A stretch of DNA of 64,000 nt from the IMG/VR virus record IMGVR_UViG_3300022868_000014, positions 32,453 through 96,452 of that record; one strand, written 5' to 3'. Of the stretch, positions 2-62,285 are shown in pieces (the first letter of the stretch is position 1; the number at the start of each line of letters is the position of its first letter). Made by a program: the position numbers and the translations under genes. The notes under the pieces were generated by a model. It did no database searches, had not been told where the DNA came from, and was given only the letters and a program-made list of their open reading frames with translations. This stretch comes from a virus.

Positions 2-1744
2 CGTAATGGGATCTATTCTCAGGCCATTAAAAAATGTGTTCGTTACTTCCTTAACGACATAGACCTGACAGGGGACGACCTAAGCCATGACACACGTAAG
101 AAATACCAAACCTTCCTAATGGAACAGATGAATATACTGGACCAGCTTGGGCAGGTAGGTGATGATGTAATCGCCTATGGTAACAGCTTCACATCAGTAT
201 CAGTACCGTTAAGGCGGTCCTTGGTATGTCCTAATAAAGATTGTGGACTATCCCGACCTCTTGAAACACTGAAGTTAGATGAAGACTACAAGTGGAAAGA
301 TTATAGCTTTGTAGGGGACTGTCCTCAGTGTAAAATGAAAGCACAAACCTTTAGACGCATTGATGCCAGCGGTGTCAGTAAGCATTCAAAAATTAAAATC
401 ATTAGATGGGCACCTCAGTATGTTTCTATTAAACATTGCTCTATCACTGGTGAATCCGATTACTACTATGAGATCCCGGCGGAAGAGAAAAGACGTATCA
501 AGGACGGTGACCCTGTGTTTATACGTTCTATGCCGTGGGAACTTATAGAGTCTGTTAAGAACGACAGGCCATTTAAGTTTAATAAGGAAACATTTTATCA
601 TCTAAAATGTAATACTGCAGCAAATCTTGTCCCTATGTTGAAGGGTTGGGGCTTACCTCTGTTTATGTCTAACTTCTCACAAGTTGTTCACCTCCAAATA
701 CTTGAGAGATTTAATGAGGCGATTGCGATGGATTACATCGTACCATTCAGAGTTCTGACTCCTCCGACAACTGGGGGCGCTTCAAAAACAGATCCTATGT
801 TATCTAATAACATGGGTAACTTTATGGGAGCTGTAAGACGTATGGTCAAACAGCATCGCCAGGACCCGACTTCTTGGCATACATTACCATTCCCTCTAGA
901 ATATCAGGCAATCGGTGGAGAAGCTAAATCACTGGTACCTGTTGAACTTATTGACAGAGCACAAGACGTACTGTTAACTAGTATGGGTGTTCCACAAGAG
1001 TTCTATCGTGGGTCTATCACTATGGGAGGCAGTGGTCCTCCAATCTCTCTTCGTATGTTCGAAAAGACTTGGACGCATTATACCACTATGCTTGACGACT
1101 GGTTAGGTTGGTTTCTAGTCCAGTGCGGTCGTATCATGGGATGGGAAGGTAACATTACCGGAAAACTTGAACGTACTAGTATTGTTGAAGACGAAATGGG
1201 TAAACAAGTTAAGCTTAATCTAGCTAGCGCTAAAGTCATCTCTAACCGTACAGCCCTTAAAGCATTCGGTATTGATATGGACCGTGAACGCGAACAGATC
1301 ATCGAAGAAGACCGTATTATGAACGAGTTAATGCGCGAAGAACAGAAGAAGGATGAACAGACTATGATGCTCACGGAGCAGATGGCTACTATTCCTCCAG
1401 ACGCAGCAGCTCAGAATATGGGTATGCCTCCGGGCGCAGAAGGTGGAGCACCACCTGCAGGCGGACCAGTAGGCGCAGCACCTATGCCTCCAGCAGGAGC
1501 AGCTCCTATGGGCGGTGGTACACCTTCTATGGATGATATGATGGCACAAGCTGAGCAGACAGCTCAGCAGATTATGTCTATGGACCCAACAACTAGACGT
1601 AATGAGCTCACTAATCTCAAGAAGAGCAATCCTACATTACACGCTCAAGTTAAGCAAATGATATCAGACATGGAGCAGGGTGTTAAATCAAACGCCCTAG
1701 CCCAAGCTAAGCAACAAGCGTCACAAGGCGGCGGTGCTATGTAA
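2..1744 (+). CDS. Portal protein (5' end beyond window)
   Basis: The reading frame is open from base 2, so the gene starts upstream of the window; an ATG at 119 is internal. At least 580 residues are present. The portal forms the dodecameric ring at the head vertex through which DNA is packaged and ejected. The assignment rests on the overall pattern: a conserved N-terminal region, a central part with LVPVELIDRAQDVLLTSMGVPQEFYRG, typical of phage portals, and position at the head of the head module. Near window residues 76-112 there are two cysteine pairs (CPNKDC and CPQC), which look like a zinc ribbon insertion. The C-terminal 130 residues are rich in Pro, Met, Gly and Ala and then become helical. 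Terminase is presumably upstream. Confidence 0.8.
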   Translation, partial: RNGIYSQAIKKCVRYFLNDIDLTGDDLSHDTRKKYQTFLMEQMNILDQLGQVGDDVIAYGNSFTSVSVPLRRSLVCPNKDCGLSRPLETLKLDEDYKWKDYSFVGDCPQCKMKAQTFRRIDASGVSKHSKIKIIRWAPQYVSIKHCSITGESDYYYEIPAEEKRRIKDGDPVFIRSMPWELIESVKNDRPFKFNKETFYHLKCNTAANLVPMLKGWGLPLFMSNFSQVVHLQILERFNEAIAMDYIVPFRVLTPPTTGGASKTDPMLSNNMGNFMGAVRRMVKQHRQDPTSWHTLPFPLEYQAIGGEAKSLVPVELIDRAQDVLLTSMGVPQEFYRGSITMGGSGPPISLRMFEKTWTHYTTMLDDWLGWFLVQCGRIMGWEGNITGKLERTSIVEDEMGKQVKLNLASAKVISNRTALKAFGIDMDREREQIIEEDRIMNELMREEQKKDEQTMMLTEQMATIPPDAAAQNMGMPPGAEGGAPPAGGPVGAAPMPPAGAAPMGGGTPSMDDMMAQAEQTAQQIMSMDPTTRRNELTNLKKSNPTLHAQVKQMISDMEQGVKSNALAQAKQQASQGGGAM

Positions 1745-4141: not shown

Positions 4142-5226
4142 TAAAGAAACAAGCCGAGTCCACATCAGAGATGACTCCCGGTACACTCGCGAATCTCGCA
4201 CTGAATCCGTGGGCATCAGTACTGCCGGGTTCTAAATACTTTATACCCGAGTTTATTGAGAATATGAAGGCTAAGTATAGGGATAACCCTCCAATACCCT
4301 TTACAGGTAATGCATCTTTTGATAAGAATCTGTTTCATGGTATGGCAACAGGTGGTACAGCTATGGCTCTAGCAGCATTGGCTCGGTACATCATGCATAC
4401 ATCGCAGGATAAAGAGCTAGACAAAACACTTAGAACAGACTCACGTGAGGCGACCGTAGGCGCTACTAATCCTATATTCTCACCAGACCCCTACTTAGAT
4501 GATTTAGCAGAAGAGCAGGCCCAGCAGGGCATAGGCATCGATAAGTCTGCGGAAGAAGCTGTCAAAGAAGAACCCAAGCCTGATACAGGCGGCGTCGATA
4601 TCAGCCCATGGCTCAAAGCTATAGTTCCTTTATCCATGATGATAGGCGGCGGTATGATAGGATATCAAGGTGTTGATAAAATATTAGAGCGTAATCGTAA
4701 AAGTGAACTAGACACTGACATTGATGAGCTTAGTAATAAATTAGATAAGGCCAACTATACTAAATTAATGAGAGCACGGGGCCTAGATCCAGATGAGCTA
4801 CCACCTCCTGTACCACCTGGACAAGAGATGAGCGCAGACGGGCAGGTATCTCCTATACCTAAACAAGCCCTTGAGGATTCAGCTAAAAATGCAATTAAAT
4901 CTATGGCAGCATTAGTTATGCTAAGTGTTGCAGCGAGTAGTGGTGTACTTACGAAACGATATTTCGACGGAGAAGATCCACAGAGAGCAGAGTACAGCGA
5001 AATGCAGCAGGCTCTTAAAGAGTTAAAGATGAGAGAACAGCGTAAAACTCCTATATCAATAGCTCCAATAGCACCAGCGCTCGAACAGAACCTTAACAAA
5101 CACCTGGGTAGCCCACAATCAGCAGTAAGCCATAGTTTACCGTCCAAAATCGAAGAGACCCCTGTAGACATGCCTGTCTCAGGTCTCAACAAAGATAAGT
5201 CGGACAGAACAATGGCATTACTATGA
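4138..5226 (+). CDS. Hypothetical multi-pass membrane-like head-block protein
   Basis: 362 residues starting MIKKQAEST. Three hydrophobic glycine/alanine-rich stretches lie near residues 63-86, 156-178 and 248-270, separated by charged coiled-coil-like segments (for example ELDTDIDELSNKLDKA) and a proline-rich loop. The stop overlaps the polymerase start by four bases. It resembles the proteins at 1810, 2634 and 12770 in style (small Gly/Ala hydrophobic segments plus K-x-A motifs) though not in obvious sequence. It may be an internal virion or ejection protein; function unproven. Confidence 0.65.
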   Translation: MIKKQAESTSEMTPGTLANLALNPWASVLPGSKYFIPEFIENMKAKYRDNPPIPFTGNASFDKNLFHGMATGGTAMALAALARYIMHTSQDKELDKTLRTDSREATVGATNPIFSPDPYLDDLAEEQAQQGIGIDKSAEEAVKEEPKPDTGGVDISPWLKAIVPLSMMIGGGMIGYQGVDKILERNRKSELDTDIDELSNKLDKANYTKLMRARGLDPDELPPPVPPGQEMSADGQVSPIPKQALEDSAKNAIKSMAALVMLSVAASSGVLTKRYFDGEDPQRAEYSEMQQALKELKMREQRKTPISIAPIAPALEQNLNKHLGSPQSAVSHSLPSKIEETPVDMPVSGLNKDKSDRTMALL

Positions 5227-8200
5227 CCCAAACATTTTTATCGGAATTAAAGAAGCAACCTACGTACAGGTATGACATTTTAGATTTTGATGGCATAAGA
5301 AACGCCACAATGGATAATGTCAAAGCTGCTGTATCGCAACGTTTCCCTTTAGAGAATGATGATTATACTCTAGCTGTAGATGAAGTGGATTACGATGGCC
5401 CGGATAGTTATTCCCTAAAGGAGCAGAAAGAAGCAATCCTAAAAGGTAGAAGCCTAGGTCGTAGACTTAAGGGTAGATGGACACTTACCGATAAACTCAC
5501 AGGCAAACCAGTAAGCCAGACTAAGAAAGTTACTTTACTTAATGTTCCTTATATTACTCCACGTGGTACTTATATCCGTAATGGCCATGAGATGACTATT
5601 GGACACGTGCTGCGCCTAAACCCGGGTGTTTACTCGCGGGTAAAGGCTAATGGATTATATGAGGCCCATGTTAATGTAGAACAAGGTACAGGTTCCCAGT
5701 TTAAGATGGAGATCGACCCAGAGACTGGTGTATTTAATATTCGTAAGGGTAATGTCAATGCAAGGCTTTATCCTATTCTCAGATCCATGGGTATCCCTGA
5801 TAAGAAAATAGAGGAGATGTGGGGCACTGAATTGCTCAATACCAACAGGCTGGCAAGTTCCGGAACTATGGTAACACGTAATCTTCAAAAGCTACTACCC
5901 AAGGAAGCCTCTGACGGCACGAAAGCCAATTACGTGACTCTGAGTCCGGATGATGCTAAAGCGCTCTTAGAATCGTTTGGAACGATGCGACTAGACCCTG
6001 TATCCACAGAAGCCACTCTTGGCAAGCCTTATGACAGAGTATCACCTGATATGCTGTTAGGTACATCGGATAAACTATTAAGATTAGCTAAAGGCACATC
6101 AAAGGCAGATAATAGGGATAGCATGCAGTTTCAGAAAGTATATGGACCTGCTGAGATTTTTGCAGAACGTATTGTCAAAGATGGTGGCCGACTAGGCCGT
6201 GCCCTCTTATGGAAGGCTACAAACAAAAAGAACCTGGACTTTATGTCATCTGGTGCACTTAATGCACATGTTGACGGAGTCTTTAATGAATCAAAATTAG
6301 CACAGTACATTGACGGGTCAAGCCCTTTTGATGCTATTGACTCAGCTACACGTATTACACGTCTAGGCGAGGGAGGCTTGAGCAGCCAACGTTTAGCATC
6401 TGATGAGATGAGATTGGTACAGAACTCCTTTAAAGGATACATAGACCCGATCAGATCACCAGAGTCTCTCGCCGTGGGACTACAAATGTTCATGACACAG
6501 AATACACGTAAAGGACATGATGGCCTACTATATACACAGTTATTCAACCCACGCACAGGTAAGAAAGAATGGGTAGACTCTAAGACAGCAGCAACAGCCA
6601 ATATAGCTACTTCGGAGTACATGGATACTAAAGACCCTTATATCCCTCTAGTGGGTGGAGAGCGTGGTGTACATATAGCACCCCGTAAAGATGTGGACTA
6701 CTATCTTAGTGATGATAATAACATGTTCTCATTGGGTTCTAACATGGTACCATTCAAGGGCGGTGTTAAAGGTATGAGATTATTGATGGGGTGCCTGGCT
6801 CCTGATACTAATATTATAATTAAAAAAGCTGATAATAGTATATTTTATGGTCATATAGAGAATTACGAATGGCACCAAGGAGACCAAGCGCACTCAGTTG
6901 ATCAGACTACTGGAAAGACAACCTGGAGAGGGGTTGAGCGATTGGTGCCTAATTATAATAAAATAGATATGTTAGAAGTTAAATTAAAAAGTGGTAGAAA
7001 ACTAACTACAACTGTTAATCATAAATGGGTGACTATGAGTGAACAAGGAACTTTAGAAAAGATCACAGCTCAGAATCTAGTTATGGGTACACCCATCCCC
7101 AGAGAAGGTTGGTTAGACTTCCCCATGGAAGAAGGCATCACATCTGTGACCATAGGGAAGGGGGCCAAGCATAATAGTTTTTCGGGCTTTGAGATGGAGC
7201 TCACAGAGGGCGTGGGATACATGCTGGGTTTATATACTGCAGAGGGCTGGTTACAAGGAGATAGGGGCCATGGATATGGTACAACAAGCTGGGCAGTTGA
7301 TAGACCGGAATTGCAGAAGAGATTATGTGCTGTATTAGATGACTTGGATCTTAAGTATAAAATAAGACGCAATGGTGCCGACCCTCATAAGAAGGTAGTG
7401 GTCAATCACTCAGGGTTTGCACGTTGGTTACATGCTAATTTGGAAACGGGTTCTTACAAGAAGAAGGTTGCGGGACTGATCCTGCAGGCCCCCTTAGGGT
7501 GTAGGGAAGGTTTTATAGCTGGATTTTTTGACGGAGATGGTACTGTGATGGATAGAAGAGGCTACGCCAGGCTAATTACAGGTGTGAGAAGTTATGACCT
7601 TATAGAGGGTTTGTCGAACCTATTCAGCACACTACAGATTGATACAGTGGTTAGAGAAACCACAGCCCTCGATAAACCTATCTACTTACTCGAAGTAAGG
7701 TCCCAGCATTTACATAAAGTCCCGGTGCTTACTCATAACGAAAAAGCTAAGAGGATGTCTACGCTGAAACTGTGGTCCGGTAAAAAGAATATAGATTACA
7801 TACCTATGTATAAAGATCTTCATGCCAGCGTACTACAGCGATCTACCCGTAAGGAGCACTTTAGACATCGCGCATATGTTAATCAACATACGAAACAATC
7901 ATTACAAGAGCGCATATCCTCCGAGGAATGCATCTGGTTAGATAGTGAGATAAGGTGGGATAGCGTGGTTGGTATAAAGGACGTAGACCCTGTAGCCATT
8001 ACATATGATCTGGATCTCAATGACCACACATTCTCAGTAGGTCAAGGTATATTTGTACATAATAGTAAATACGCTACACAGGCTTTACCCTTAGTTAATA
8101 GAGAAGCAGCACTAACACGTAGCGCAGATGGTACAGGTACCGGTTCTGTAGAAAGATTAGCAGGTAAATACACAGGAGCGGTCCAGGCACCTAAAGCAGG

Positions 8201-11200
8201 TGTCGTAAAACAAGTACGTAAAGATAAAATAATCGTTGAATATATAGACGGGGAACAAGCAGAGCATGAGCTTTATGATAACTTCCCGGCCAACCAGAAG
8301 GGTTACCTAAGGAGCCATGCTGAAGTTAAAGCTGGTGATACGTTTAAGAAAGGTCAAGCACTAGCCTCAAGCAACTACACAGCTAATGATGGTGTGTTCG
8401 CGGGTGGTTTGAATCTTCGTACAGCTTTCATGAACTTTAAAGGCTCTAACTATGAGGATGCTATCGTAATATCAGAGGCAGCAGCTAAGAGATTAACATC
8501 CGAGTATATGTACAATACAAAGCTACCTAAAGAAAAACATCTATCCACAGATACCAAACGATATGTTAACATGTTCCCGGGCAAGTATACGGCAGATCAA
8601 TTTGATAAGATGGATCCTAACGGTATGATTAAAACGGGTTCAGTTGTTGACAAAGGTGATCCACTTATACTAGGTATCAGAGAGAACCAGCCATCCCCCG
8701 GTACCGCGGGTCGTCGTACATTTACAGATGTCTCCGAGAAGTGGGAACATGATTACCCGGGAGTTATAACAGATGTAGTTACAGGTCGCGAGAATCACAC
8801 AGTCTTCTCCAGAGCCAATGTACCTATGAAGGTAGGCGATAAGATGTGTTACTCTGAGGATACAGATCTGCTAACCTCAAAGGGGTGGAAGAATATTACG
8901 ACTGTAACACTGGCTGATGAATTGGCCACCCTAGATCCTGATACAAAAAACATACAATACATCAACCCTTCAGCATTGCATAGCTACGACCACTCTGGTA
9001 GTATGCATGTAGTAGAAACAACACAGGTCAGCCTGTGTGTTACTGAGGAGCATAAACATTATGCAGCCCTTAGAAAGGGTAAAGAAGCAAGGTGGGAATA
9101 TGGTCTTCATAAGGCCTCTGATTTATATGGTAAAAAGTACAGGCTGGAAAAAACGGGTAAGTGGAAAGGCATACACCAGGATACGTTCAAATTACCACCC
9201 GTTGTTATGGGTGTAGGTAGAACCATGAAACTTGTTGAGGGGCCTGAGGTTTCGATAGAGGCTTATCTGACTATAATGGGCATCTACCTATCCGACGGCA
9301 ATTCAGTGTGGCAGCCTAGTAGTGGTTCTTATGGTTTTGATATAAGCCAAACAAAAGGTAATAATAAATATATACTGCAAAAGGCCTTTACCAGATTAGG
9401 TGTGAAGTGGTGTGAAGGGTCTCATTCTGAAAAAATAAGAGTGTATAGTAAGCACTGGGCTTCTTATCTCAAACAATTTGGAAAAGCACCCGAAAAGTAC
9501 ATACCTGATAACATACTGACCCTGTCACCTGATCTTTTGGCCATTTTTTATGAGTGGTTCATGTTCGGCGACGGGCACAGAACCCAAGCAGGACACGGAA
9601 TAACTACAGTCTCCAGCCGTCTCGCAGGGGATTGGCAAAGATTATGTCTTCATATGGGAATGTCCGCCACTGTAAGACTTACAGATAAAGGTGGACCACG
9701 CATTATATGCGGACGAAATTGTTTTGCTAAACCATCCTACACGGTAAGCACATACCGATATAAAAACCAACCCACGATCAACCACGGGCATGCCAAGACA
9801 CAGAAGGGTCAGACGGAATACTGGGATGAAAACTATTCAGGAAAGGTCTATTGCCCTGAGATGCCTTTTAATCACATAGTCTATACGAGACGTAATGGTA
9901 AAACAGTGTGGTCCGGTAATTCAAATAGATATGGTTCAAAGGGAGTAGTAGCAGAGGTTGTACCTGATAACCAAATGCCTTTAGATAAGAAGGGTAAACC
10001 ATTCGAAATATTAATGAGTCCTCTAAGCGTCGTTTCCCGTACTAATCCGGCCCAGTTAATTGAAGTTGCCTATGGTAAGATAGCCCAGAAAAGAGGTAAA
10101 GCCATAGATCTACCGGCCTTTATGACTGAAGATGCGGCGGAGAAGGCGATGGCTGATCTAAAAGAAAACGGACTATCAGATACAGATGATCTGCTTGATC
10201 CTGAAACTGGTAAGACTATTCCTAAGGTATTTAACGGGATGGCTTACTATTATAAATTAAAACATACAGCTGAATCTAAAGAGTCAGGCCGTGGTACAGC
10301 TGGATATACAATGGATAACGTCCCAGCGTCAGGTGGCTATGAAGGTAGCAAACGGCTTGGTGGCTTAGAAACCTCAGCTTTAATAGGTCACTCTGTTATG
10401 GAAGTCCTTAAAGATGCTAAGATAGTTAAAGGGCAGGCCAACGATGAGTTCTGGCGTGCATTTAAATTTGGTAAGACTCCTACTATGCCTGGTACACCTT
10501 TAGTACATAGCAAGTTCTTTGAACACCTAAAGGGTGCTGGTATTAATGTACGTAAAGGCAAAAGCAGTATTGATATCTTCGGTATGAACAATGATGATGT
10601 AGGCCGTCTCAGCCAGGGTCGACAGGTTAAGTCAGCTGATACATTTGAGACTAACACATACAGACCAATTGATGGTGGCTTGTTCGGTAAAGATGTATTT
10701 GGACCGGACGGTAACCAGTGGGGTTATATCCCATTAGATGAACCTATCCCTAATCCTGTAATGGCTGATAGCTTACGCAGATCCTTAGATATGACATTAA
10801 AAGATTTCGAAGCAGTAGCAGAGGGCCGTAAAGAGTTGAATGGTGATACAGGGGGTAACGCATTAAAGAAAGCCCTAGGTAAGATCGACCTTACCAGAGA
10901 GGTCAAGTATGCCATGGAAGATATAAAGCGTAGCACGGGTACGCGTAGGGACAATGCGATTAAGAAGTATAGAGCATTAGCCAGCATCAAACTGCAGAAG
11001 ATGCACCCTAAAGACTTCATGCTTGATAGAATACCAGTCCTACCACCTAAGTACAGACCTATTACATCTGTAGATGGTATGACAATGGTTGCTGATGCTA
11101 ACTACCTCTATAAAGCACTGATAGATGCTAACAAAGATTTTAAAGACGCCAGAGAACAACTACCTGATGATATGCTGGGAGATGCTAGAGCTCAGATCTA

Positions 11201-11960
11201 TAGAGGCTTTAAAGCAATAACAGGATTACACGACCCAGATGGAATTAAGCTACAGCAGAAGAATGTAGGTGGATTACTTAAGTGGGTATTCGGTAAGAGT
11301 TCCCCTAAGTATGGTGCCTTCCAACGCCGTGTTGTAGGATCTGCTGTTGACATGGTGGGCAGAGGAACAGTCACACCTAACCCAGCATTAAAGCTTAATC
11401 AGATCGGACTCCCAGAGGAACAGGCTTGGAACATCTATGAACCATTTGTTGTTAAAGCACTCATACAGGGTGGATATAAAGCAACAGACGCAGTTAAGAT
11501 GACAGCTGAGAAACACCCAGCGGCTTATTCTCTACTACAAAAGGCAGTTGAGGAACGTCCTGTAATTCTGAACAGAGCACCTTCACTCCATAAGTTTAGC
11601 TTAATGGGTTTCTGGCCAGTACTGACAAAGGGTAGCACTATACAGGTTAGTCCTAGTATTGTAGGACCATTCAATATGGATTTTGATGGAGATGCAGCAA
11701 ACTTCCACGTACCTGTATCACGTAAGGCGGCACAAGAAGTTGCGAGCAAGATGATGCCCGAACAGAACCTTTTGGATATAAAAGACTTTAAAGCTCATTA
11801 TAAACCAATGAGGGAATATTTGCAGGGCCTTAACATAGCAACAAGACAAAAACCAGGTCCACCTGTTAAAGTTTTTAAGAGTAAGGCAGACGCCAAAGAA
11901 GCTTACAGGAAAGGCGAGATAGACGTAGATGATCCTATTCGTATAGTGGACAAAAGCTAA
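5223..11960 (+). CDS. Phage DNA-directed RNA polymerase: beta subunit fused to N-terminal part of beta-prime, with two inteins
   Basis: 2245 residues; about 1463 after removal of two inteins. It synthesises RNA from DNA as the catalytic core of a multisubunit polymerase. Beta features: VTLLNVPYITPRGTYIRNGHE (N-terminal), PIRSPESLAVGL, KGMRLLMG..SKYATQALPLV (split by intein 1), GDKM..SNRYGSKG with the conserved lysines (split by intein 2), MSPLSVVSRTNPAQLIE, and the beta C-terminal GGYEGSKRLGGLE. From about residue 1810 beta-prime starts (DGGLFGKDVFGP), then IPVLPPKYRPI, VILNRAPSLHKF and the catalytic NMDFDGD at residues 2151-2157 with all three Asp present. The first beta-prime zinc site is absent. 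The chain stops about 90 residues after the catalytic motif; the remainder is encoded at 13570. It overlaps the preceding gene by ATGA. Confidence 0.95.
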   Translation: MTQTFLSELKKQPTYRYDILDFDGIRNATMDNVKAAVSQRFPLENDDYTLAVDEVDYDGPDSYSLKEQKEAILKGRSLGRRLKGRWTLTDKLTGKPVSQTKKVTLLNVPYITPRGTYIRNGHEMTIGHVLRLNPGVYSRVKANGLYEAHVNVEQGTGSQFKMEIDPETGVFNIRKGNVNARLYPILRSMGIPDKKIEEMWGTELLNTNRLASSGTMVTRNLQKLLPKEASDGTKANYVTLSPDDAKALLESFGTMRLDPVSTEATLGKPYDRVSPDMLLGTSDKLLRLAKGTSKADNRDSMQFQKVYGPAEIFAERIVKDGGRLGRALLWKATNKKNLDFMSSGALNAHVDGVFNESKLAQYIDGSSPFDAIDSATRITRLGEGGLSSQRLASDEMRLVQNSFKGYIDPIRSPESLAVGLQMFMTQNTRKGHDGLLYTQLFNPRTGKKEWVDSKTAATANIATSEYMDTKDPYIPLVGGERGVHIAPRKDVDYYLSDDNNMFSLGSNMVPFKGGVKGMRLLMGCLAPDTNIIIKKADNSIFYGHIENYEWHQGDQAHSVDQTTGKTTWRGVERLVPNYNKIDMLEVKLKSGRKLTTTVNHKWVTMSEQGTLEKITAQNLVMGTPIPREGWLDFPMEEGITSVTIGKGAKHNSFSGFEMELTEGVGYMLGLYTAEGWLQGDRGHGYGTTSWAVDRPELQKRLCAVLDDLDLKYKIRRNGADPHKKVVVNHSGFARWLHANLETGSYKKKVAGLILQAPLGCREGFIAGFFDGDGTVMDRRGYARLITGVRSYDLIEGLSNLFSTLQIDTVVRETTALDKPIYLLEVRSQHLHKVPVLTHNEKAKRMSTLKLWSGKKNIDYIPMYKDLHASVLQRSTRKEHFRHRAYVNQHTKQSLQERISSEECIWLDSEIRWDSVVGIKDVDPVAITYDLDLNDHTFSVGQGIFVHNSKYATQALPLVNREAALTRSADGTGTGSVERLAGKYTGAVQAPKAGVVKQVRKDKIIVEYIDGEQAEHELYDNFPANQKGYLRSHAEVKAGDTFKKGQALASSNYTANDGVFAGGLNLRTAFMNFKGSNYEDAIVISEAAAKRLTSEYMYNTKLPKEKHLSTDTKRYVNMFPGKYTADQFDKMDPNGMIKTGSVVDKGDPLILGIRENQPSPGTAGRRTFTDVSEKWEHDYPGVITDVVTGRENHTVFSRANVPMKVGDKMCYSEDTDLLTSKGWKNITTVTLADELATLDPDTKNIQYINPSALHSYDHSGSMHVVETTQVSLCVTEEHKHYAALRKGKEARWEYGLHKASDLYGKKYRLEKTGKWKGIHQDTFKLPPVVMGVGRTMKLVEGPEVSIEAYLTIMGIYLSDGNSVWQPSSGSYGFDISQTKGNNKYILQKAFTRLGVKWCEGSHSEKIRVYSKHWASYLKQFGKAPEKYIPDNILTLSPDLLAIFYEWFMFGDGHRTQAGHGITTVSSRLAGDWQRLCLHMGMSATVRLTDKGGPRIICGRNCFAKPSYTVSTYRYKNQPTINHGHAKTQKGQTEYWDENYSGKVYCPEMPFNHIVYTRRNGKTVWSGNSNRYGSKGVVAEVVPDNQMPLDKKGKPFEILMSPLSVVSRTNPAQLIEVAYGKIAQKRGKAIDLPAFMTEDAAEKAMADLKENGLSDTDDLLDPETGKTIPKVFNGMAYYYKLKHTAESKESGRGTAGYTMDNVPASGGYEGSKRLGGLETSALIGHSVMEVLKDAKIVKGQANDEFWRAFKFGKTPTMPGTPLVHSKFFEHLKGAGINVRKGKSSIDIFGMNNDDVGRLSQGRQVKSADTFETNTYRPIDGGLFGKDVFGPDGNQWGYIPLDEPIPNPVMADSLRRSLDMTLKDFEAVAEGRKELNGDTGGNALKKALGKIDLTREVKYAMEDIKRSTGTRRDNAIKKYRALASIKLQKMHPKDFMLDRIPVLPPKYRPITSVDGMTMVADANYLYKALIDANKDFKDAREQLPDDMLGDARAQIYRGFKAITGLHDPDGIKLQQKNVGGLLKWVFGKSSPKYGAFQRRVVGSAVDMVGRGTVTPNPALKLNQIGLPEEQAWNIYEPFVVKALIQGGYKATDAVKMTAEKHPAAYSLLQKAVEERPVILNRAPSLHKFSLMGFWPVLTKGSTIQVSPSIVGPFNMDFDGDAANFHVPVSRKAAQEVASKMMPEQNLLDIKDFKAHYKPMREYLQGLNIATRQKPGPPVKVFKSKADAKEAYRKGEIDVDDPIRIVDKS
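6792..8063 (+). mobile_element. Intein 1 in RNA polymerase beta
   Basis: 424 residues (524-947 of the precursor), translated in frame. It begins with Cys (CLAPDTNI) after extein LMG and ends FVHN followed by Ser of the C-extein (SKYATQ), the expected junction for protein splicing. A block B-like TTTVNHKW is present. Two LAGLIDADG-type motifs (VGYMLGLYTAEGW and REGFIAGFFDGDG) mark a homing endonuclease domain. Removing it joins LMG to SKYATQALPLV, which matches the conserved bacterial beta motif LMGANMQRQAVPLL. Splicing is inferred from junction residues. Confidence 0.93.
8847..9920 (+). mobile_element. Intein 2 in RNA polymerase beta
   Basis: 358 residues (1209-1566). It starts with Cys (CYSEDTDLLTSKGWKNI) directly after GDKM and ends WSGN before Ser of SNRYGSKG. 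Removal restores GDKMSNRYGSKGV, equivalent to the bacterial GDKMAGRHGNKGV, which carries conserved beta lysines near the active centre. LAGLIDADG-like motifs (YLTIMGIYLSDGN and LAIFYEWFMFGDG) are present; the endonuclease may be intact. The penultimate residue is Gly rather than the usual His, a known but less common variant. Confidence 0.9.
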
Positions 11961-13569: not shown

Positions 13570-16548
13570 ATGATCACGACAGTAGGCAAAGAACTAGTTA
13601 AAGATGCTTTACCTGCTGCTTATCGTTCTTATGCCGAAGAGGCTATAGATGGTAAGCGGATCGGTGATCTTATGACTGATCTTGCTAAGAAAGATCCAGG
13701 TAAGTATAACGACACCCTCCAAAAACTTAATAACATAGGTCGTAATGTAGCAACTACATATGGCCGTGAAGCTAGTATTAGTCTCAAAGATTTAACAGTC
13801 CCTGCCTCCATCAGGAATAAGAAGCAAGAACTCAAGCAAAGAATACACCTTATAACAAATAGCACAGGCCTTACATCTGAGCAGAAGCTTGATGAGATTA
13901 CGAAGGTAACCAATAAAGCCTCCAAGAACTTATCCGAAACAGTATATAGGGATCTCTTGGCCCGTAACAACTCTATGGCCAGACAAATAGAAAGTGGCTC
14001 CAGAGGGAATAAGACACAGCTTATGCAGACTGTCTTCGGTGATATGCTTATGGCAGATTCTACAGGCAAGACAATACCATTCCCAGGACTGGACTCCTAT
14101 GGTAGTGGTGTATCTCCTTTACCTTATTGGCTTGGTGCTCAATCCTCCAGAAAGGGCATGTGCCTCGCAGGAAGCACATTGGTTAGAATGGCTGATTTCT
14201 CCGTTAAAGCTATAAAAGACATAACCAAAGGTGAGAGGGTAATAGGAGCCGATACTGAAGGAAATACTTTTCCGGTAGAGGTTATCGACACTTTTGATAA
14301 TGGGGAACGAAAAGTTAATGATTACACGTTCAGGGTAGGAAGGATGGATAATCTTGTAACACTAACAGCTACAGAAAACCATAAAGTCCTCTCTGTCATT
14401 AAGAATGGACAGGCAACACCTCATCTAAGAATCCCTTCTAAGCTACCTCTCAGCCAGGCATGGCGTTGTTTTGGCATGACACCGGCCGGCACCTATCAAT
14501 GTAAGGCAGAAACCTCACAGCCGTATGCTCGTTTATTGGGCTTATTATTAGGCGATGGACATTTAAGCGAGAAATATAGTGTTACGTTATCTTCAATAGA
14601 TGTTGATCTAATAGAGAAGCTTAACAAGGATCTAAACAATGTTCAGCTTAAACATATAAAGAGGAATAGAACGTCCGGAGAGCCCTCCTTAGAGTACGTA
14701 GTAATTGGAAAAGGGATTAGAGACCAAGCAAAACACAGAAACCCTATAAAAAGATGGCTTGATACCTTTGGATTACTGGGCACACATTCCCATACTAAGT
14801 TTATACCAGAGGAGAGTAAGAGATGGTCAAATGCTGATATAGCTAATTTGATACATGGGTTATATGAGTCGGACGGTTGGTGCCGCAAAGGTAGTAATAC
14901 ATCTAACTTACCAGGTGTAGGCTGGTCGATGTCTTCAGAAATATTATTGAACCAACTAAAAGAACTGTTACAAACCAGGTTTGGCATCTACACAACAACT
15001 GTAAGCCCTGTTAAACTTTCAAAGACCAGATCCTTTAATAAGAGTGGAAAAGAGATAATACACAGACTTGATATGTACACCCTTAGAGTAACTAATGAGT
15101 CTTCTATTTATAAATTTAATAAACTACTGGCGTATGGAAGAAAATCAGATGAATTTAGAGAACTACTTAGTAAGCATACCCCTAATAACAGGGACGATAG
15201 TCTTGTTTTCGGGTATACAGGTAAATCAGACTCCTATAAAATAAATACGTATGATTTATCAGTGAACCACCCTGATCATCTATTTGTACTAGCTAATGGA
15301 ATGGTAGTATCTAACTCCGATACACAATTCAGTACAGCTGAGTCAGGCTATTTAAGCAAACAATTAACAAACGTAGCCCATCGTAATATAGTAACTATGC
15401 CCGACTGCGGAGTTACACAAGGCCTTAAAGTAGAAGGTGACGACTCTGACAATGTAGGCAGTATACTACTGCAGCCTGTCGGTACCCTTAAAGCCGGTAC
15501 AATTATACAAGCAGAACACTTACCCCTTATGACCGACAAGAAAGTAACAGTACGTAGCCCTTTAACATGTGAAGCACCAGAAGGCGTATGCCAACAGTGC
15601 ACAGGTGTAAGAGAGAAAGGTACCTTACCTGATATAGGCGAGGCTGTGGGCATCAATGCTGTACGTTCCTTTGTAGAGGCACTAACACAATCCGGTCTTG
15701 GTTCGAAGCACATAGGCGGAGTAGGCGGTAAAGACGAAGAGGAAGTAGGTCTAACAGGTTTCAAAGAAGTAAATCAATTTGTACAAGTCCCTAAAGAGTT
15801 TGTAGGTGGTGCAATATTATCAGAAGCTGATGGTAAGGTGGCAAAGATACAAGACGCCCCTCAGGGTGGTAAATACATCATGGTCAGCGGTAAGCAGTAT
15901 CATATTCCACGAGAACTCCACACAGCAGTAAAGATAGGCGATAATGTAGAAGCAGGTGATGTCCTTAGCAACGGAGTACCCAACCCTTCAGAGATTGTAA
16001 AGTATAAAGGTATAGGCAGTGGCAGACGTTACTTCATGGAACAGTATCATAAAATATTAAAGAAGAATGGAGCAGGTACTAACAGGCGCAATCTGGAACT
16101 CTTTGCCCGTAGTTTCATATCCAAAATTAAGATAAATGATCCCGAGGGTTACAATGGCCATATGGTAGGTGACGTTGTGGATTATGATTATTTAGCATCC
16201 AGATGGCAACCTAGAGAGGGTTCTAAGTTGAAATCAGTCACAAGTGCAAGTAATTTATATCTAGAGAAACCCTATTTACATTATAGTATAGGGACACGAA
16301 TTACGCCGAAGGTATCTAAGGAACTGAGGAGTAACGGAGTAGGACTGGTTGCAACGCATCCTAAACCACCTCCCTTTGAACCGTTTGTCGTTCGTGCTCA
16401 GGATTTTACACAACATGATAAGGATTGGATGACTCGCTTAGGCGGAGAAAATCTCAAACGTTCAACATTAGGGGCCGCTGCACGCGGGGGCACTAGCGAA
16501 CGTAAGAGTACATCATACTACCCAGCAATAACAAATATTGGAGATTAA
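13570..16548 (+). CDS. Phage RNA polymerase beta-prime C-terminal part, with one intein
   Basis: 992 residues; about 607 after splicing. It continues beta-prime: TTVGKEL at the start matches the region just after the NADFDGD domain in bacteria. SPLPYWLGAQSSRKGM..SDTQFSTAESGYLSKQL is the bridge-helix/trigger-loop region, and it is interrupted by an intein. Cysteines at residues 613, 667, 674 and 677 (PDCG, LTCEAPEGVCQQC) match the second beta-prime zinc site. IGEAVGINAVRSFVEALTQ..HIGG corresponds to the bacterial GEAVGIIAAQSIGEPGTQ segment. The gene is separated from its other half by two unrelated genes. There is no clear ribosome site before the ATG, so expression may rely on coupling. Confidence 0.93.
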   Translation: MITTVGKELVKDALPAAYRSYAEEAIDGKRIGDLMTDLAKKDPGKYNDTLQKLNNIGRNVATTYGREASISLKDLTVPASIRNKKQELKQRIHLITNSTGLTSEQKLDEITKVTNKASKNLSETVYRDLLARNNSMARQIESGSRGNKTQLMQTVFGDMLMADSTGKTIPFPGLDSYGSGVSPLPYWLGAQSSRKGMCLAGSTLVRMADFSVKAIKDITKGERVIGADTEGNTFPVEVIDTFDNGERKVNDYTFRVGRMDNLVTLTATENHKVLSVIKNGQATPHLRIPSKLPLSQAWRCFGMTPAGTYQCKAETSQPYARLLGLLLGDGHLSEKYSVTLSSIDVDLIEKLNKDLNNVQLKHIKRNRTSGEPSLEYVVIGKGIRDQAKHRNPIKRWLDTFGLLGTHSHTKFIPEESKRWSNADIANLIHGLYESDGWCRKGSNTSNLPGVGWSMSSEILLNQLKELLQTRFGIYTTTVSPVKLSKTRSFNKSGKEIIHRLDMYTLRVTNESSIYKFNKLLAYGRKSDEFRELLSKHTPNNRDDSLVFGYTGKSDSYKINTYDLSVNHPDHLFVLANGMVVSNSDTQFSTAESGYLSKQLTNVAHRNIVTMPDCGVTQGLKVEGDDSDNVGSILLQPVGTLKAGTIIQAEHLPLMTDKKVTVRSPLTCEAPEGVCQQCTGVREKGTLPDIGEAVGINAVRSFVEALTQSGLGSKHIGGVGGKDEEEVGLTGFKEVNQFVQVPKEFVGGAILSEADGKVAKIQDAPQGGKYIMVSGKQYHIPRELHTAVKIGDNVEAGDVLSNGVPNPSEIVKYKGIGSGRRYFMEQYHKILKKNGAGTNRRNLELFARSFISKIKINDPEGYNGHMVGDVVDYDYLASRWQPREGSKLKSVTSASNLYLEKPYLHYSIGTRITPKVSKELRSNGVGLVATHPKPPPFEPFVVRAQDFTQHDKDWMTRLGGENLKRSTLGAAARGGTSERKSTSYYPAITNIGD
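14161..15315 (+). mobile_element. Intein 3 in beta-prime trigger loop
   Basis: 385 residues (198-582). It starts with Cys (CLAGSTLVRM) after RKGM and ends VVSN before Ser of SDTQFSTAESG. Block B-like TATENHKV is present, with LAGLIDADG-type motifs YARLLGLLLGDGH and IANLIHGLYESDG. Excision restores SSRKGMSDTQFSTAESGYL, matching the bacterial trigger loop ARKGLADTALKTADSGYL. An unspliced protein could not be active, so splicing must occur for polymerase function. Confidence 0.93.
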
Positions 16549-26289: not shown

Positions 26290-27249
26290 ATGAGAATGGA
26301 TCCCGATGTTCGTTTGCTGAACGAAACCATTGTTAATGGACTTACCTCCACTGACGATGTGTTGCGCAAGCAAGCTAAAGAAGGTGTTGATGATTGGCTT
26401 CGTATTAAGATGCGTGAAGATGGCTTCGCCCGTAGGATTCTTCCTCCGGTCCCAGTTACACCCGCAGACCTTGATCGCCAGGTCGACACACCGAAACCTG
26501 TTATTGTAAAGGACCAGGAACCTAATTCCGCTGGAGCATATACTGTTCCCTTCGGAACTACTCCTATGGACCATTACATCATGGGCCCAAGATACCGCGT
26601 CATGTTTGACCGTATCCTGAGTCGTAGATATAACAGCGATGTTAACAACCTCTTAACTTATGACATGGACATCCGTCAGATCCTTAATGACTTTCTTTTG
26701 AAAGACATTATGGCTGAAGAAGACAGAAAGTTCATGGCTGTAGTTGACTCTATCGTAGGCGTAGCCAACACTGTTGACGCGACTCTCGAAAGTTGTCAGA
26801 ATATTACAGTAGGTCCGTTGACTCGTCAATCGTTGGCACATTCCCGTAAGGGCCTGCCATCAACCAACCGTCACTTGAATGCATCAGTTGCACTCGTGAA
26901 TAACATCACTATTTGGGATGTTGTTGCATTAGGCAGAGATGACATTGGTGGTGACCTTGCTGAAGAACTACTGGTTAACGGTTTCGCCGAACGCCAGATC
27001 ATGGGACTCAAATGGGCCATTACTATCAAGACTGACTTGGTAAGCGATGACGAATTGTACATGTTCGCAGAGCCTAAGTACACTGGGGACTTCTTTGTTC
27101 TCGATGACGTTACGATCAGTACTAAGCATGAGGATTATTTTATCGAGTTCTTTGCGTATGAGTGCATAGGAGCTACTATCCAGAATACGGCTAGTTGTGC
27201 CAAAGTTTCCTTCGTGGGAAGTCAGGTCGATTGGCGGACTGGGGTGTAA
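26290..27249 (+). CDS. Major capsid protein
   Basis: 319 residues with CAGGAG upstream. It is placed after protease, scaffold and decoration genes and before a strong terminator, as expected for the capsid gene of a large phage. Visible features are an N-terminal helix with LRKQAKEGVDDW (a possible processing site near residue 30), a long helical segment near residues 120-155 (NLLTYDMDIRQILNDFLLKDIM) and a beta-rich C-terminus. I infer an HK97-type fold from context. Residues 101-157 have diverged relatives in two small genes at 28899 and 29089. Confidence 0.75.
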   Translation: MRMDPDVRLLNETIVNGLTSTDDVLRKQAKEGVDDWLRIKMREDGFARRILPPVPVTPADLDRQVDTPKPVIVKDQEPNSAGAYTVPFGTTPMDHYIMGPRYRVMFDRILSRRYNSDVNNLLTYDMDIRQILNDFLLKDIMAEEDRKFMAVVDSIVGVANTVDATLESCQNITVGPLTRQSLAHSRKGLPSTNRHLNASVALVNNITIWDVVALGRDDIGGDLAEELLVNGFAERQIMGLKWAITIKTDLVSDDELYMFAEPKYTGDFFVLDDVTISTKHEDYFIEFFAYECIGATIQNTASCAKVSFVGSQVDWRTGV

Positions 27250-50335: not shown

Positions 50336-50369
50336 TTTATTATAATAATTAGTAGAGGGGCTTTTCTAT

Positions 50370-52967: not shown

Positions 52968-52969
52968 TT

Positions 52970-56236: not shown

Positions 56237-56248
56237 TAAGGAATAATT

Positions 56249-56746: not shown

Positions 56747-56766
56747 TCTTAATAAAGGATTATAAA

Positions 56767-57438
56767 ATGAACAGAGTATATTCAATCTTAACTAAAGGGC
56801 AGAATAAAGATGCTCAAGGATACCAACGAAAGGTAGATACCACTGTAGGTTATAGCGGACTGGAAAGTGTTGCTGATATCCTGGTAACGGATAGTACTGA
56901 CAACTCCTACTACAACTACCAAGCAGATCAATTAGTCCAGGTATGCCGTAAATCGCTTTTAAAGGCCTCTCTCGCTGCAGTTGATCCTTTAAACACCTAC
57001 GAGTATACCTTCGGTGTTGTTGAGCCCTCCACGTTAATAGGAGCGCTCCCCGCTGGAGTGGCGTTGGATCTACTGGAACCGGACATGCGCCATACATGGA
57101 CATATCAGTCCTTGGTTATAGTGGTTAACCCCTCAGGGTTGGTTACTGTTAATGGTCTGCCACAGACCTTTACAGTGGCTGAGGGACTAACAACAGCTAT
57201 TATATTGGCCGATGGACTTTCCATGAAACTCAGAGGAACGCTTCCTGCTGCATCATTCAGCACCATTGTAACAGTGGTTAGACAACCGACAAGAGACCTT
57301 AAACCTGTTATAACTGCTTTAAAAGAATTCGACACTAAATGGCTACCAAAATACTCTGACTATAGACATAGTTATGATGTTAATGATTGGTTAGCCGCAT
57401 TCATTCTAAACTATTGCGAGACTGTAGATGGATCTTGA
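56767..57438 (+). CDS. Hypothetical baseplate-region protein
   Basis: 223 residues from ATG 56767 (AAAGGA 7 bases upstream); an in-frame start at 56743 is weaker. It has a beta/alpha mix and a hydrophobic central part (YQSLVIVVNPSGLVTVNGLP). It overlaps the next gene by 11 bases. No family recognised. Confidence 0.55.
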   Translation: MNRVYSILTKGQNKDAQGYQRKVDTTVGYSGLESVADILVTDSTDNSYYNYQADQLVQVCRKSLLKASLAAVDPLNTYEYTFGVVEPSTLIGALPAGVALDLLEPDMRHTWTYQSLVIVVNPSGLVTVNGLPQTFTVAEGLTTAIILADGLSMKLRGTLPAASFSTIVTVVRQPTRDLKPVITALKEFDTKWLPKYSDYRHSYDVNDWLAAFILNYCETVDGS

Positions 57439-59026
57439 TTCAGTAATTATTAATAGCTTAACTATGAGTGGTGCCGGTAAGACATACGACATTACCGACT
57501 TCTCAGCAAGCTGGGCAATTGACAGGGTACCACAGGCCAGATGCCGTGTGATCACAGGTCAAGGGGTCCTTGGCTCCACTAAGAACGTGGAGTGGGAAGA
57601 TCCCGATCCTGGTAAGCTGTGGACTATCAAGGTAAAGACAAGTGACGGCACAGAGACGCTCTTTAAAGGTTATATACTATCCGTAGCAGAGTCTGAAAGG
57701 TTATCACCAATGGGTAGTAAGGTCTCTTTATTGGTAACACTAGGAGCTGAGGCAGTTGTGCTATCCTCATTACAGTCAGCATCTTATTCCTACTGGGACC
57801 TGGAAGCCCTGGACACACAAGAGTCGAGTACACGTCAAAGACCCGTCATCAACTCGCGGTATCGCGCGCTGGCGATGAGTCTTGCTTCGATTATGGATGA
57901 ACCTGAGACTCGTAAAGATGTACAGGCGTTAACAGGGTATGGTGAGGTGAAATCCTATGATGCTCTTAATAAGTATATCATAAGCATGGCTGCTTATATG
58001 CATGACTGGGTAACTCTTGGTGAAGGCACATACAAAATATCGGATTTCTTCAAAGCTGATAGGGATATCGCATTCAAACCAGAGGACTCTGGTTTTTCCA
58101 AGACTGATAACTTCAACGCTCTTATTACCACATCCATGGGTTTAGCCTATCAAAAGATGTGGCAGTCTGGCAGTGTATGGTCTGCGGTTGTAGGGACAGC
58201 TCGTATGTTTTACTTATCAGTGATACCCCGTAAGAATAATACAGTAGAGATCGTACCTACCTTTGCATGGCTAAAGAAACCACACATAACTATCAGTAAT
58301 AGTCTTATATTAGGTGTCCAGGATACAACTAACAAAAGTAAACTCCTATACGCACCAGATCAGGTTAGGGTTGTGTCTCATCTACCAATGAACAGTAATG
58401 GTGCGAAAGCCAGTTCAGCCGGTATGTATGTGGGGTTATACCCAGAGGAACAGGGTGCAGATAAAGGTAAGACCGTATCTATGAGTATCCCTGATTGGTT
58501 GGCTGAGCATGTTAAATCTGAATTTGATGATGTACCTGCTGATAAGAAGACAAGGGTTAAAAGCGGAGAAAAGCCTGATGAGAAGAGGGACGAGCTCTCA
58601 ACTAACCAGCGTAACCTAGAGAGTACAGCCGACAGCTTAGCCAAAGTATTTTATGCCCAGAGAAAGAGTGCAGACCGTACAGTGTCCCTTAGGATACCAT
58701 GGAATAGATTCTCTATGATAAACTCTCTTGGTTATGTGGCTAAGATACCTAATCTATCCTTATACATTACCAGTGACAAACAAACACTATACGGAATGGT
58801 ACAATCAGTCGGCTTGACCATAAGCAGATCAGCAACAGGAGGTACAGCTTCTATGAATATTAATATATCTCACGTGCGTGATGAGGCTTCAAATACAAAA
58901 TTTGGGCTTGATGATAACCCTCTATACTCTTTTGACTTTGCATCAGGTGCATCAAAAATAAAGTCAGCAGTTGGACTTGGGGGCGGTAGTGGAGTAAGTT
59001 TAGGAGATAGACTTAAGCCCGGCTGA
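57428..59026 (+). CDS. Baseplate hub-like protein
   Basis: 532 residues. The beginning (DSVIINSLTMSGAGKTYDITDFSASWAIDRVPQARCRV) and GKLWTIKVKTSDGTETLFKGYILSVAESE look like the beta-rich domains of hub proteins (gp27/gpD-like). The C-terminal part (LGYVAKIPNLSLYITSDKQTLYGMVQSVGLTISRSATGGTASMNINISHVR) also fits. The reading frame continues after the UGA for 33 codons of similar composition; see the next entry. Confidence 0.6.
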   Translation: MDLDSVIINSLTMSGAGKTYDITDFSASWAIDRVPQARCRVITGQGVLGSTKNVEWEDPDPGKLWTIKVKTSDGTETLFKGYILSVAESERLSPMGSKVSLLVTLGAEAVVLSSLQSASYSYWDLEALDTQESSTRQRPVINSRYRALAMSLASIMDEPETRKDVQALTGYGEVKSYDALNKYIISMAAYMHDWVTLGEGTYKISDFFKADRDIAFKPEDSGFSKTDNFNALITTSMGLAYQKMWQSGSVWSAVVGTARMFYLSVIPRKNNTVEIVPTFAWLKKPHITISNSLILGVQDTTNKSKLLYAPDQVRVVSHLPMNSNGAKASSAGMYVGLYPEEQGADKGKTVSMSIPDWLAEHVKSEFDDVPADKKTRVKSGEKPDEKRDELSTNQRNLESTADSLAKVFYAQRKSADRTVSLRIPWNRFSMINSLGYVAKIPNLSLYITSDKQTLYGMVQSVGLTISRSATGGTASMNINISHVRDEASNTKFGLDDNPLYSFDFASGASKIKSAVGLGGGSGVSLGDRLKPG

Positions 59027-59128: not shown

Positions 59129-59143
59129 TAAAGGAAAAGCATA

Positions 59144-59905
59144 ATGGCCAAACTAAAAGCAAATGATATGTGGATGAAGGGCACTCCGAAGGAGCTTAAC
59201 AATGCTCAGCGTGATACACCCACTACCCATGCATATGATAACTGGAAGAAGGAGCCTAACCCATTAAATGTTAAGGCCGTGCTCACAGAGCTTAAACCTA
59301 CCATAGAATCTGCTCTAACATCTTATGCCCCAGAAGATAAGGATATTCTACGCACAAGAGCCAATATAATGGCAGTAAACGCCATCAATATGTATGATCC
59401 TACTCAACGTACTAAACTAAGCTCATATGTATTTAATCATCTGAAAGGACTGAACAGGGAGAAAGCCCGTCGTAAGAATGTTGTACATGTCCCTGAGAAC
59501 ATACTACTTGAGCGTAACAAAATACAAAAGGCTACCGATTCCTTCCAATCTGAGTACGGAAGGGAACCTACCTTGGACGAATTAGCCGACGACACAGGTC
59601 TCTCTATTAAACGTATTGAATATGCATCGAAGAAGAAAGCAGCACGTAGTGGTTCACAATTACTATCTGAGAAGGGTGATTCACTCTTTACTAAAGCAGA
59701 GGATCCTCAACGTGTATGGGCTGACTATGTCTACCATGACTTAGACGGGCCAGATAAGAAGATATTTGAATGGAGTACAGGCTACGGTGGCACAGATAAG
59801 ATTCAGAAAATGGACATAGCTAAGAGGCTCAACATCAGCCCGGCAGCTGTTAGTCGTCGTATTAACAAAATAGTCTATCTATTGGAGCAAGGATACAATG
59901 TCTGA
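59144..59905 (+). CDS. Phage sigma70-family factor
   Basis: 253 residues with AAAGGA upstream. Residues 66-120 resemble region 2 (TRANIMAVNAINMYDPTQRTKLSSYVFNHLKGLNREKAR; HVPENI matches the RIPVHMI segment). Residues 121-165 match region 3 (SEYGREPTLDELADDTGLSIKRIEYA). Residues 200-248 match region 4 with a helix-turn-helix (DIAKRLNISPAAVSRRINKIVYLLEQ). It would recruit RNA polymerase, either the phage enzyme encoded here or the host's, to phage promoters. Overlaps the next gene by eight bases. Confidence 0.88.
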   Translation: MAKLKANDMWMKGTPKELNNAQRDTPTTHAYDNWKKEPNPLNVKAVLTELKPTIESALTSYAPEDKDILRTRANIMAVNAINMYDPTQRTKLSSYVFNHLKGLNREKARRKNVVHVPENILLERNKIQKATDSFQSEYGREPTLDELADDTGLSIKRIEYASKKKAARSGSQLLSEKGDSLFTKAEDPQRVWADYVYHDLDGPDKKIFEWSTGYGGTDKIQKMDIAKRLNISPAAVSRRINKIVYLLEQGYNV

Positions 59906-60266: not shown

Positions 60267-60267
60267 C

Positions 60268-60690: not shown

Positions 60691-60691
60691 T

Positions 60692-62284
60692 ATGGCTGTA
60701 ACATTTGATGATGTCAGCACAGACCTGCTTAAAGATTATGAAGAAATATTAAAGGCATATTACCTAGAATTAAATCCTACTGCGGATGTATCTAATGGTA
60801 GTGCTATTCATGAACTAGTGATCAGACCTGCTGCTGCTATTTACGCACGTAATGAGGTAGCATTAGAAGACCTAAGGACACAATATTCCCTTAACCTACT
60901 GAGCGCTACTGATGATCCTGACGAAACGCTGGCCACCAACCTGGCTGCTAACTTTAAAGTCGTACGGAAAGACGGAACTCCGGGTACAGGTACCCTAGCT
61001 GTCTATACTAACCAGACTAATGATATATACCTGAACTCAGGTACAACTGTGACTGCTGGTGCTGTAGAGCTTGAGCTGACTAAGACCTATGTAGGTGTTG
61101 CAGACGACTCAGATCGTACGGACACAGATACGGTTAAGTACAGACAGTTCGTAAAGACAGGCGACACCGAATATGCATTCCTAGTACCTGTTAATACTGT
61201 AGATAATACAGCAGCTGTCGTAGAGGAAGGCGCAACAGCCACACTTACTGGCCAGAACACACAGGTAACAAGATTAGAGGTAGCATCAGCTGTAAGCGGA
61301 GGCTCCGCTGAGGAGACTACAACTGAGCTGGTTGATCGCGTTATCAACGGTATAACAGCTAAAGTACCTTCAGGTAAAGCACATATCCAAGCCCTCTTTG
61401 AGGAACAGGATGAGATCAACGTAAGAGACCTTGCCATCTTCGGCATGGGTGATCCTGAGATGCTCAGGGATAAGAACAACGTCTTCCTAATAAGCACAGG
61501 CTCCAGAGTAGATATCTATTGTAAGACAGCACAGCTGCCTGCTACACTGGTAGTACAGAAGACAGCCACCTCAACTGATGGTATAAACTGGTCTATGTTC
61601 TTTGAACGTGACGAGGCCCCCGGTTGGTATTACATATCAAAGGTGTCTCACGTAGGCAACGCAAGAGTAATAACAGATTCAGCTGAGTTTGATATCACCT
61701 TCCTTTATCAGCAGGAAGATGATGGCCCTGAAGTATTCAGTGGACTCACAGCGCGTTACAGCCCCTATCAGACCGCAAAAGTAGATTTTAGCTACGTGGG
61801 CGCAGGATCGACCTCCGCCGTTTTCAATGTATCCCTGGTTTACATGCCCCAACTAGAAGGACTACAGGAGCTGATCAATGCGCCTAGTATCCGTAACAAG
61901 CAACAAGACAATCTGGTCAAGGGAGCTGTACCAGCATATGTTGGTATGGATCTAACCTTGAACTGCCTAAACGATTGCTCAGGTATTGACCTATCTGTCC
62001 TTAAAGATTTTATAGCAGCCTACATCAATGAGCTGCCTATGGGCCGTGGCTTCCTAAGCGTGTCCGATCTGGCTGTTGTTATCAACGCCAATTATTCTAA
62101 CCTAACTCTGAGCTTCCCCTCGAAGCTTAGTTTGACTAATTATATGCCCGACGGATCTGTTTACCAGGAAGAGACACAAGAAGGTGTTCTGAATATGCAT
62201 GAAGACCTCACTCAGAGCGTCTCTGCGGAGAATACATCCTTCTTCTGTAGGCCTGGAGATATTTACATAACCATTGAGGATTAG
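60692..62284 (+). CDS. Baseplate J-like wedge protein
   Basis: 530 residues with GGAGG upstream. GSAIHELVIRPAAAIYARNEV near the start and SGGSAEETTTELVDRVINGITAKVPSG around residues 206-232 are typical of Baseplate_J proteins (T4 gp6 / P2 gpJ), which join the hub to the fibres and trigger contraction. Confidence 0.8.
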   Translation: MAVTFDDVSTDLLKDYEEILKAYYLELNPTADVSNGSAIHELVIRPAAAIYARNEVALEDLRTQYSLNLLSATDDPDETLATNLAANFKVVRKDGTPGTGTLAVYTNQTNDIYLNSGTTVTAGAVELELTKTYVGVADDSDRTDTDTVKYRQFVKTGDTEYAFLVPVNTVDNTAAVVEEGATATLTGQNTQVTRLEVASAVSGGSAEETTTELVDRVINGITAKVPSGKAHIQALFEEQDEINVRDLAIFGMGDPEMLRDKNNVFLISTGSRVDIYCKTAQLPATLVVQKTATSTDGINWSMFFERDEAPGWYYISKVSHVGNARVITDSAEFDITFLYQQEDDGPEVFSGLTARYSPYQTAKVDFSYVGAGSTSAVFNVSLVYMPQLEGLQELINAPSIRNKQQDNLVKGAVPAYVGMDLTLNCLNDCSGIDLSVLKDFIAAYINELPMGRGFLSVSDLAVVINANYSNLTLSFPSKLSLTNYMPDGSVYQEETQEGVLNMHEDLTQSVSAENTSFFCRPGDIYITIED

Positions 62285-62285
62285 T

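Follow-up and report, generated by a model that had tools for sequence, protein, structure and literature searches.

Which RNA polymerase does a sigma factor serve when it is encoded among the baseplate genes of a phage that also carries a polymerase core of its own? This question is raised by the 64,000 nucleotides at the right-hand end of the virus record IMGVR_UViG_3300022868_000014 (96,452 bp), a stretch that is referred to as the window throughout. A preliminary description of the window pointed to a 253-residue sigma70-type protein and suggested that it could be the specificity factor of a complete phage holoenzyme. The features on which our analysis is based are collected in Table 1.

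Table 1. Features of the window and second sigma genes of related phages (window coordinates unless a record is named).
Feature	Position	Strand	Basis or remark
Portal protein	119..1744	+	PHROG_2739, E = 6e-7
RNAP beta and beta' N-terminal fusion	5223..11960	+	2245 aa including two inteins
Intein 1, in beta	6792..8063	+	residues ~524-947, with LAGLIDADG
Intein 2, in beta (probable)	8847..9920	+	residues ~1209-1566
beta' clamp coiled coil, putative docking site of sigma region 2	11097..11222	+	E. coli R275/R278/R281 replaced by A/D/D
beta' catalytic motif DFDGD	11679..11693	+	intact
RNAP beta' C-terminal subunit	13570..16548	+	992 aa including one intein (~14161-15315)
Major capsid protein	26290..27249	+	PHROG_2522, E = 1.7e-9
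Upstream baseplate-region gene, conserved	57428..59026	+	532 aa, hub-like by position
Phage sigma-70-family protein (P0001)	59144..59905	+	253 aa, ATG start
Sigma domain 2, residues 26-112	59219..59479	+	model helices H26-36 to H92-112; RpoD alignment
Arg72, equivalent of E. coli RpoD E407 (core interface)	59357..59359	+	charge-reversed; alignment
Sigma domain 3, residues 118-163	59495..59632	+	Pfam Sigma70_r3, E = 2e-8
Sigma domain 4 with HTH, residues 188-251	59705..59896	+	weak Pfam Sigma70_r4/HTH
Baseplate wedge (gpJ/gp6-like) homologue	60692..62284	+	Arash gp13, PHROG_6 baseplate wedge
Second sigma, Arash gp196	L007 25657-26694	+	
Second sigma, D69 VPHD69_0246			
Second sigma, G015	C1:20186-20971		
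Second sigma, G024	C1:41109-41789		

Judged from its sequence and predicted fold, the product of the candidate gene, whose reading frame is kept in relatives, is a sigma-70-family initiation factor that lacks region 1. The Pfam region 3 profile matches above its cut-off in the window protein and in 13 of 13 family members. The region 4 profile gives a weak match to the single sequence (E = 0.009, below cut-off), and Sigma70_r2 is below detection on the window protein alone and is found in 5 of the 13 family members. PHROG_351, annotated as 'RNA polymerase sigma factor', matches with E = 1.2e-13. An hhalign comparison of the family alignment with E. coli RpoD (E = 2e-10) pairs residues 68-248 with RpoD 403-599, which corresponds to regions 2.2-4.2; as this match starts at RpoD 403, regions 1.1 and 1.2 are absent. 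Principal sigma factors in the PDB are matched with E = 3e-6 by the single sequence and 6e-14 by the family profile. The AlphaFold model consists of three helical domains with pLDDT mostly ~90, a disordered linker at residues 166-185, and 24 low-confidence residues at the N terminus. In a Foldseek search of the PDB, the closest structures to this model are sigma factors (SigB 8x6g, E = 1.6e-7), and the global TM is low because the sigma domains are placed differently without a core. Thus, the three sigma regions, the sigma70 profile match, and the fold with domains 2 and 4 that had been anticipated for this protein are borne out. The same is not true of a relationship to T4 gp55: the profile comparison yielded no detectable similarity (hhalign probability 0.1 over 18 columns), and kinship was rejected.

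Domain 2 comprises the core-binding region 2.2 and the -10-reading regions 2.3/2.4, with the motif YDPTQRTKLSSYVFNHL, and domain 4 is further backed by the alignment to RpoD region 4.2 and by the AlphaFold model. The protein resembles group 3-like bacterial sigma-70 factors (SigF/SigB, FliA, and regions 2-4 of RpoD) in the 2.2-4.2 alignment, in the domain order 2-3-4, and in having no region 1.1. It differs from bacterial sigma-70 in its low identity (~20%), in the charge reversal of the core-interface residue E407 to R72, and in its -10-reading residues, where W433/W434 are replaced by N/H. The Y430 position is H in most relatives and Y in the window sigma.

The placement of the gene among hub and wedge genes, as the preliminary description had it, is also supported. 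Lying 0.8 kb downstream is a homologue of Arash gp13, which in turn matches the PHROG 'baseplate wedge subunit', and homologues of the upstream hub-like gene sit at the same offset in six related loci. In the 12 other loci where a wedge homologue was found, its start lies 1.4-3.1 kb beyond that of the sigma gene, and the window shows the same spacing, giving 13 loci in total. Such a location, inside a baseplate operon with a wedge gene close downstream in all relatives compared, could mean that the protein is no longer a transcription factor and instead has a structural or regulatory role in the baseplate with a leftover sigma fold. We give this reading hardly any credence, as all three sigma domains, with the -10 and HTH regions among them, persist in phages that have diverged deeply.

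Several other features of the region were recorded. The tail-region protein encoded at 62274-64000 contains a very long run of serines, 12 tRNA genes are clustered at 28156-32819, and an MptE-like (6-hydroxymethylpterin diphosphokinase-like) protein is encoded at 37745-38704. Near 27330-27360, before the tRNA cluster and upstream of an HNH endonuclease gene, stand a hairpin resembling a terminator and a good promoter of the sigma-70 type (TTGACA-16-TATATT). The contig upstream of the window (L004) carries ~25 tandem small paralogous genes at 3487-11805, mostly Cys-rich, each with a conserved DPLYxDLLKVKELTDE-like C terminus. Three proteins of this contig (at 16469, 16946, and 18762) have in common an N-terminal leader like MNNSYYKGYTIGYLTKKA, which is perhaps an assembly or targeting signal.

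The polymerase core that had been noted in the same genome is present as two chains. The fused chain contains the Pfam domains Rpb2_3, Rpb2_6, Rpb1_1, and Rpb1_2 together with intein domains and is homologous to gp206 of Salmonella phage Arash. The second chain contains Rpb1_4, Rpb1_5, Hint, and LAGLIDADG domains and is homologous to Arash gp216. The two-chain layout is common to both phages, and the Arash chains have no inteins. The ends of intein 1, the Pfam-supported one, were placed by alignment with the intein-less gp206, and intein 2 is proposed from its insertion relative to gp206, a Cys start, and an Asn/Ser junction. Another large protein of the window also contains an intein (within 21469-24090), and most of the inteins of this phage carry LAGLIDADG. 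The beta' part of the enzyme matches bacterial beta' with E = 2e-49. No alpha subunit was found in the six lineage records searched, and a control search of 14 cellular genomes detected alpha in 13 of them. The window enzyme seems to have a short flap tip, which was counted against a pairing of the sigma with the phage core.

To determine how consistently sigma and core occur together, related sigma genes were gathered from IMG/VR and phage records. The core is also present in 19 of 20 sigma-bearing records of at least 96 kb, the window's own record included. The exception, G022 (131 kb), has no core on its contig and encodes exactly the sigma of the core-bearing record G023; the remaining searched records with a sigma but no core are fragments, 17-73 kb in length. 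In the reverse direction, the sigma occurs in all core-bearing lineage records with lengths of 100 kb and above. The sigma and beta' trees are congruent, with a Mantel r of 0.94 (0.89 on 13 non-redundant taxa). The lineage includes two cultured phages, Arash and Vibrio phage D69, whose genomes encode the same fused beta-beta'N plus beta'C core as the window. Their homologous sigmas (Arash gp10 and D69 VPHD69_0011) are 27-29% identical to the window sigma and likewise lie upstream of a baseplate wedge gene. The retention of the sigma with the phage polymerase across the lineage suggests that the phage probably assembles a complete polymerase itself and does not just borrow that of the host. As read from the sequences, tree congruence and linkage are signs of long co-inheritance of sigma and core and not of binding, and any vertically inherited phage gene would also give both. 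Recent capture of the sigma from a host was considered and rejected, given the deep tree and the lack of hits to this sigma family in bacterial genomes, within the sensitivity of the scan.

The main rival explanation is that the sigma redirects host RNAP to phage late promoters, in the manner of T4 gp55 and the SPO1-type phage sigmas, and that the phage core is served by a second sigma or by a non-sigma factor. Host cores are likewise present in the infected cell, which counts against a reading in terms of the phage core, and to our knowledge nearly all characterized phage sigmas work on host RNAP. Sigma-bearing jumbo phages are thought to use their sigmas in this way (PMC7598289, PMC7824862). 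Against host redirection stand the association of the sigma family with the phage core in 19 records, with no member detected in bacterial genomes at the search sensitivity applied, and the residues of the predicted docking interface. The beta' clamp helices of E. coli are the docking site of sigma region 2, and the sigma-32 interface pairs D77, E81, I84, and M87 with beta' R275, R278, R281, L282, L285, I291, E295, and M298 (PMC10216364). Holoenzyme formation is impaired by the beta' substitutions R275Q, E295K, and A302D (PMC8321222). By alignment, the clamp coiled coil is kept in 19 of 19 phage beta' chains, and in all 19 the R275 position is A, V, L, S, or M. The model of the window beta' clamp region is a helical hairpin of low confidence (pLDDT 55).

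The two sides of this interface differ in charge between clades. The sigma 407 position is R or K in the window's clade and the acidic E in the clades of Arash (gp10) and D69 (VPHD69_0011). The beta' 278/281 positions are R/R in the Arash clade, whose coiled coil is basic, and mostly acidic or neutral in the window's clade, with D/D in the window itself. The 407/278 swap was first spotted by eye and scored afterwards in the same alignments, where its charge anti-correlation ranks 64 of 13,200 column pairs (407/281 ranks 156). The swap is largely one event between two clades, G002 breaks the pattern, and the correlation of summed charges is not significant (rho = -0.38, p = 0.23, 12 non-redundant taxa). 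The swap fits mutual docking and direct co-evolution of sigma and beta' and is only suggestive of them. In the window's clade, R or K would stand opposite R275, R278, and R281 of a host beta', so the window sigma should repel the host core; this suggests that it would fit host beta' poorly. For these reasons, we consider redirection of the host enzyme unlikely.

A second, different sigma bears on the division of labor between promoters. It was found in Arash, D69, the other near-complete relatives of that group, G015 (226 kb), and G024, and the partial window record shows one sigma only. In the Arash/D69 group its region 2 is more canonical. In D69 it is encoded on the early/middle strand with replication and nucleotide genes, and the baseplate sigma and the core are on the structural strand; in Arash it lies near the RNAP genes. 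Its presence in complete relatives, with early/middle genes in D69, indicates that the baseplate sigma is probably not the sole specificity factor. The second sigma would presumably handle another promoter class, and for the host-redirection reading it offers a factor that could serve the phage core in these relatives.

Candidate promoters were sought by motif analysis. In Arash (OQ632216), GGTATAAG occurs 30 times on the early/middle-gene strand and once on the other, typically ~30 nt before genes. The lone + strand copy, before gp9, was set aside as no more than the chance expectation. The GGTATAAG core lies within a longer GGTATAAGTAA-N-N-TGTAA (TATAAG-TAA-N-N-TGTAA) and appears in D69 (L100, L101) as nTATAAGTAA. 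On the structural strand, a weaker second motif, CTAAAATA, precedes portal and RNAP genes. Both motifs are candidate promoters by sequence. No motif comparable to those of Arash and D69 was found on the window contig, where the search returned a C/T-rich pattern without promoter shape and with marginal information content (IC 7.3 versus 6.5-6.9 in shuffles). Sigma-70-like promoters are not enriched in window positions 50000-64000 (26 versus 28.5 in shuffles).

The strand-specific, non-host motif TATAAG-TAA at early/middle genes of Arash and D69, and the location of both sigma and core genes within structural-gene blocks, would also suit late production of the sigma and its packaging, together with the phage RNAP, into virions for early transcription in the next cell, by analogy with the virion RNAPs of N4 and phiKZ. 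We regard such packaging as improbable. Either host sigma-70 or the second sigma could recognize TATAAG, and the Arash annotation labels many proteins structural but not gp10, gp206, or gp216.

Taken together, our best explanation is that the baseplate sigma is a promoter-specificity subunit of the phage's own alpha-less multi-subunit RNAP (msRNAP), to which we assign a probability of roughly 0.6. This pairing is favored because sigma and core co-occur, their trees are congruent, the docking coiled coil is retained and re-charged, and interface residues are altered. We infer that the sigma probably binds the phage core and may be used at late promoters. In this scheme, the beta' clamp coiled coil in the fused beta-beta' chain would receive sigma domain 2, which would recognize and open a phage -10 element, the active-site channel would take in domain 3 and the linker, and the reduced beta flap would hold domain 4. 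The earlier proposal of a complete phage holoenzyme therefore stands in part, with sigma and core encoded together, and needs modification in that no alpha was found in the six records and complete relatives have a second sigma. More tentative, and falling short of even odds, is the fuller proposal that the lineage encodes a complete bacterial-type alpha-less holoenzyme with a re-charged interface insulated from host sigma and core and with two sigmas for two promoter classes.

For contrast, eight isolates of other lineages with alignable phage msRNAP beta' genes were identified by tblastn and then searched for sigma: Rhizobium phage RHph_TM30, Vibrio phages Va2, 1.031.O, and 150E35-1, Escherichia phage IME392, Yersinia phage YerA41, Cobetia phage Carin-5, and Acinetobacter phage Ab1-TPeters. 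Two have a different full sigma, two give weak partial region-3 matches, and no sigma was detected in the other four, so a sigma is not a general requirement of such enzymes, a point that counts against the pairing. Vibrio phages 1.031.O and 150E35-1, which are outside the lineage, carry an msRNAP beta' and another sigma type, and hence the combination is not unique to the lineage. Nor is the gene itself new, since GenBank already lists Arash gp10 as a sigma factor. No published description of a conserved pairing between a sigma and a phage core was found in the literature searched, and such a pairing appears not to have been described previously. The lineage would allow direct tests of whether a viral core continues to work with a true sigma, how an alpha-less enzyme assembles a holoenzyme, and whether charge reversal gave rise to an orthogonal sigma-core pair.

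Among known systems, T4 gp55 is similar in its working only, as a phage-encoded late sigma, and T4 has no RNAP core of its own. The phiKZ gp68 and AR9 gp226 proteins are analogous in working as phage-encoded specificity subunits of phage msRNAPs. AR9 gp226 has no sequence similarity to sigma and phiKZ gp68 is sigma-like in structure only (PMC7598289, PMC13282480); these published descriptions set both apart from the window protein, a plain sigma-70 homologue. The mReC phages (Weinheimer and Aylward 2020, PMC7481178) are tailed and have readily alignable beta and beta', like the window lineage, and the TerL of Arash is of the PF03237 type, as in mReC phages. However, mReC capsid proteins match PF07068, whereas the window and Arash capsids match PHROG_2522 and not PF07068, and because this marker fails to match, the window phage was not placed in mReC. 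The main text of the mReC paper makes no mention of sigma (PMC7481178). Reviews describe msRNAP jumbo phages without a recognizable sigma and sigma-bearing phages without an RNAP (PMC7598289, PMC7824862, PMC13282480). Unlike this two-way split, the lineage of the window, Arash, and D69 has both a sigma and an msRNAP in every near-complete genome examined.
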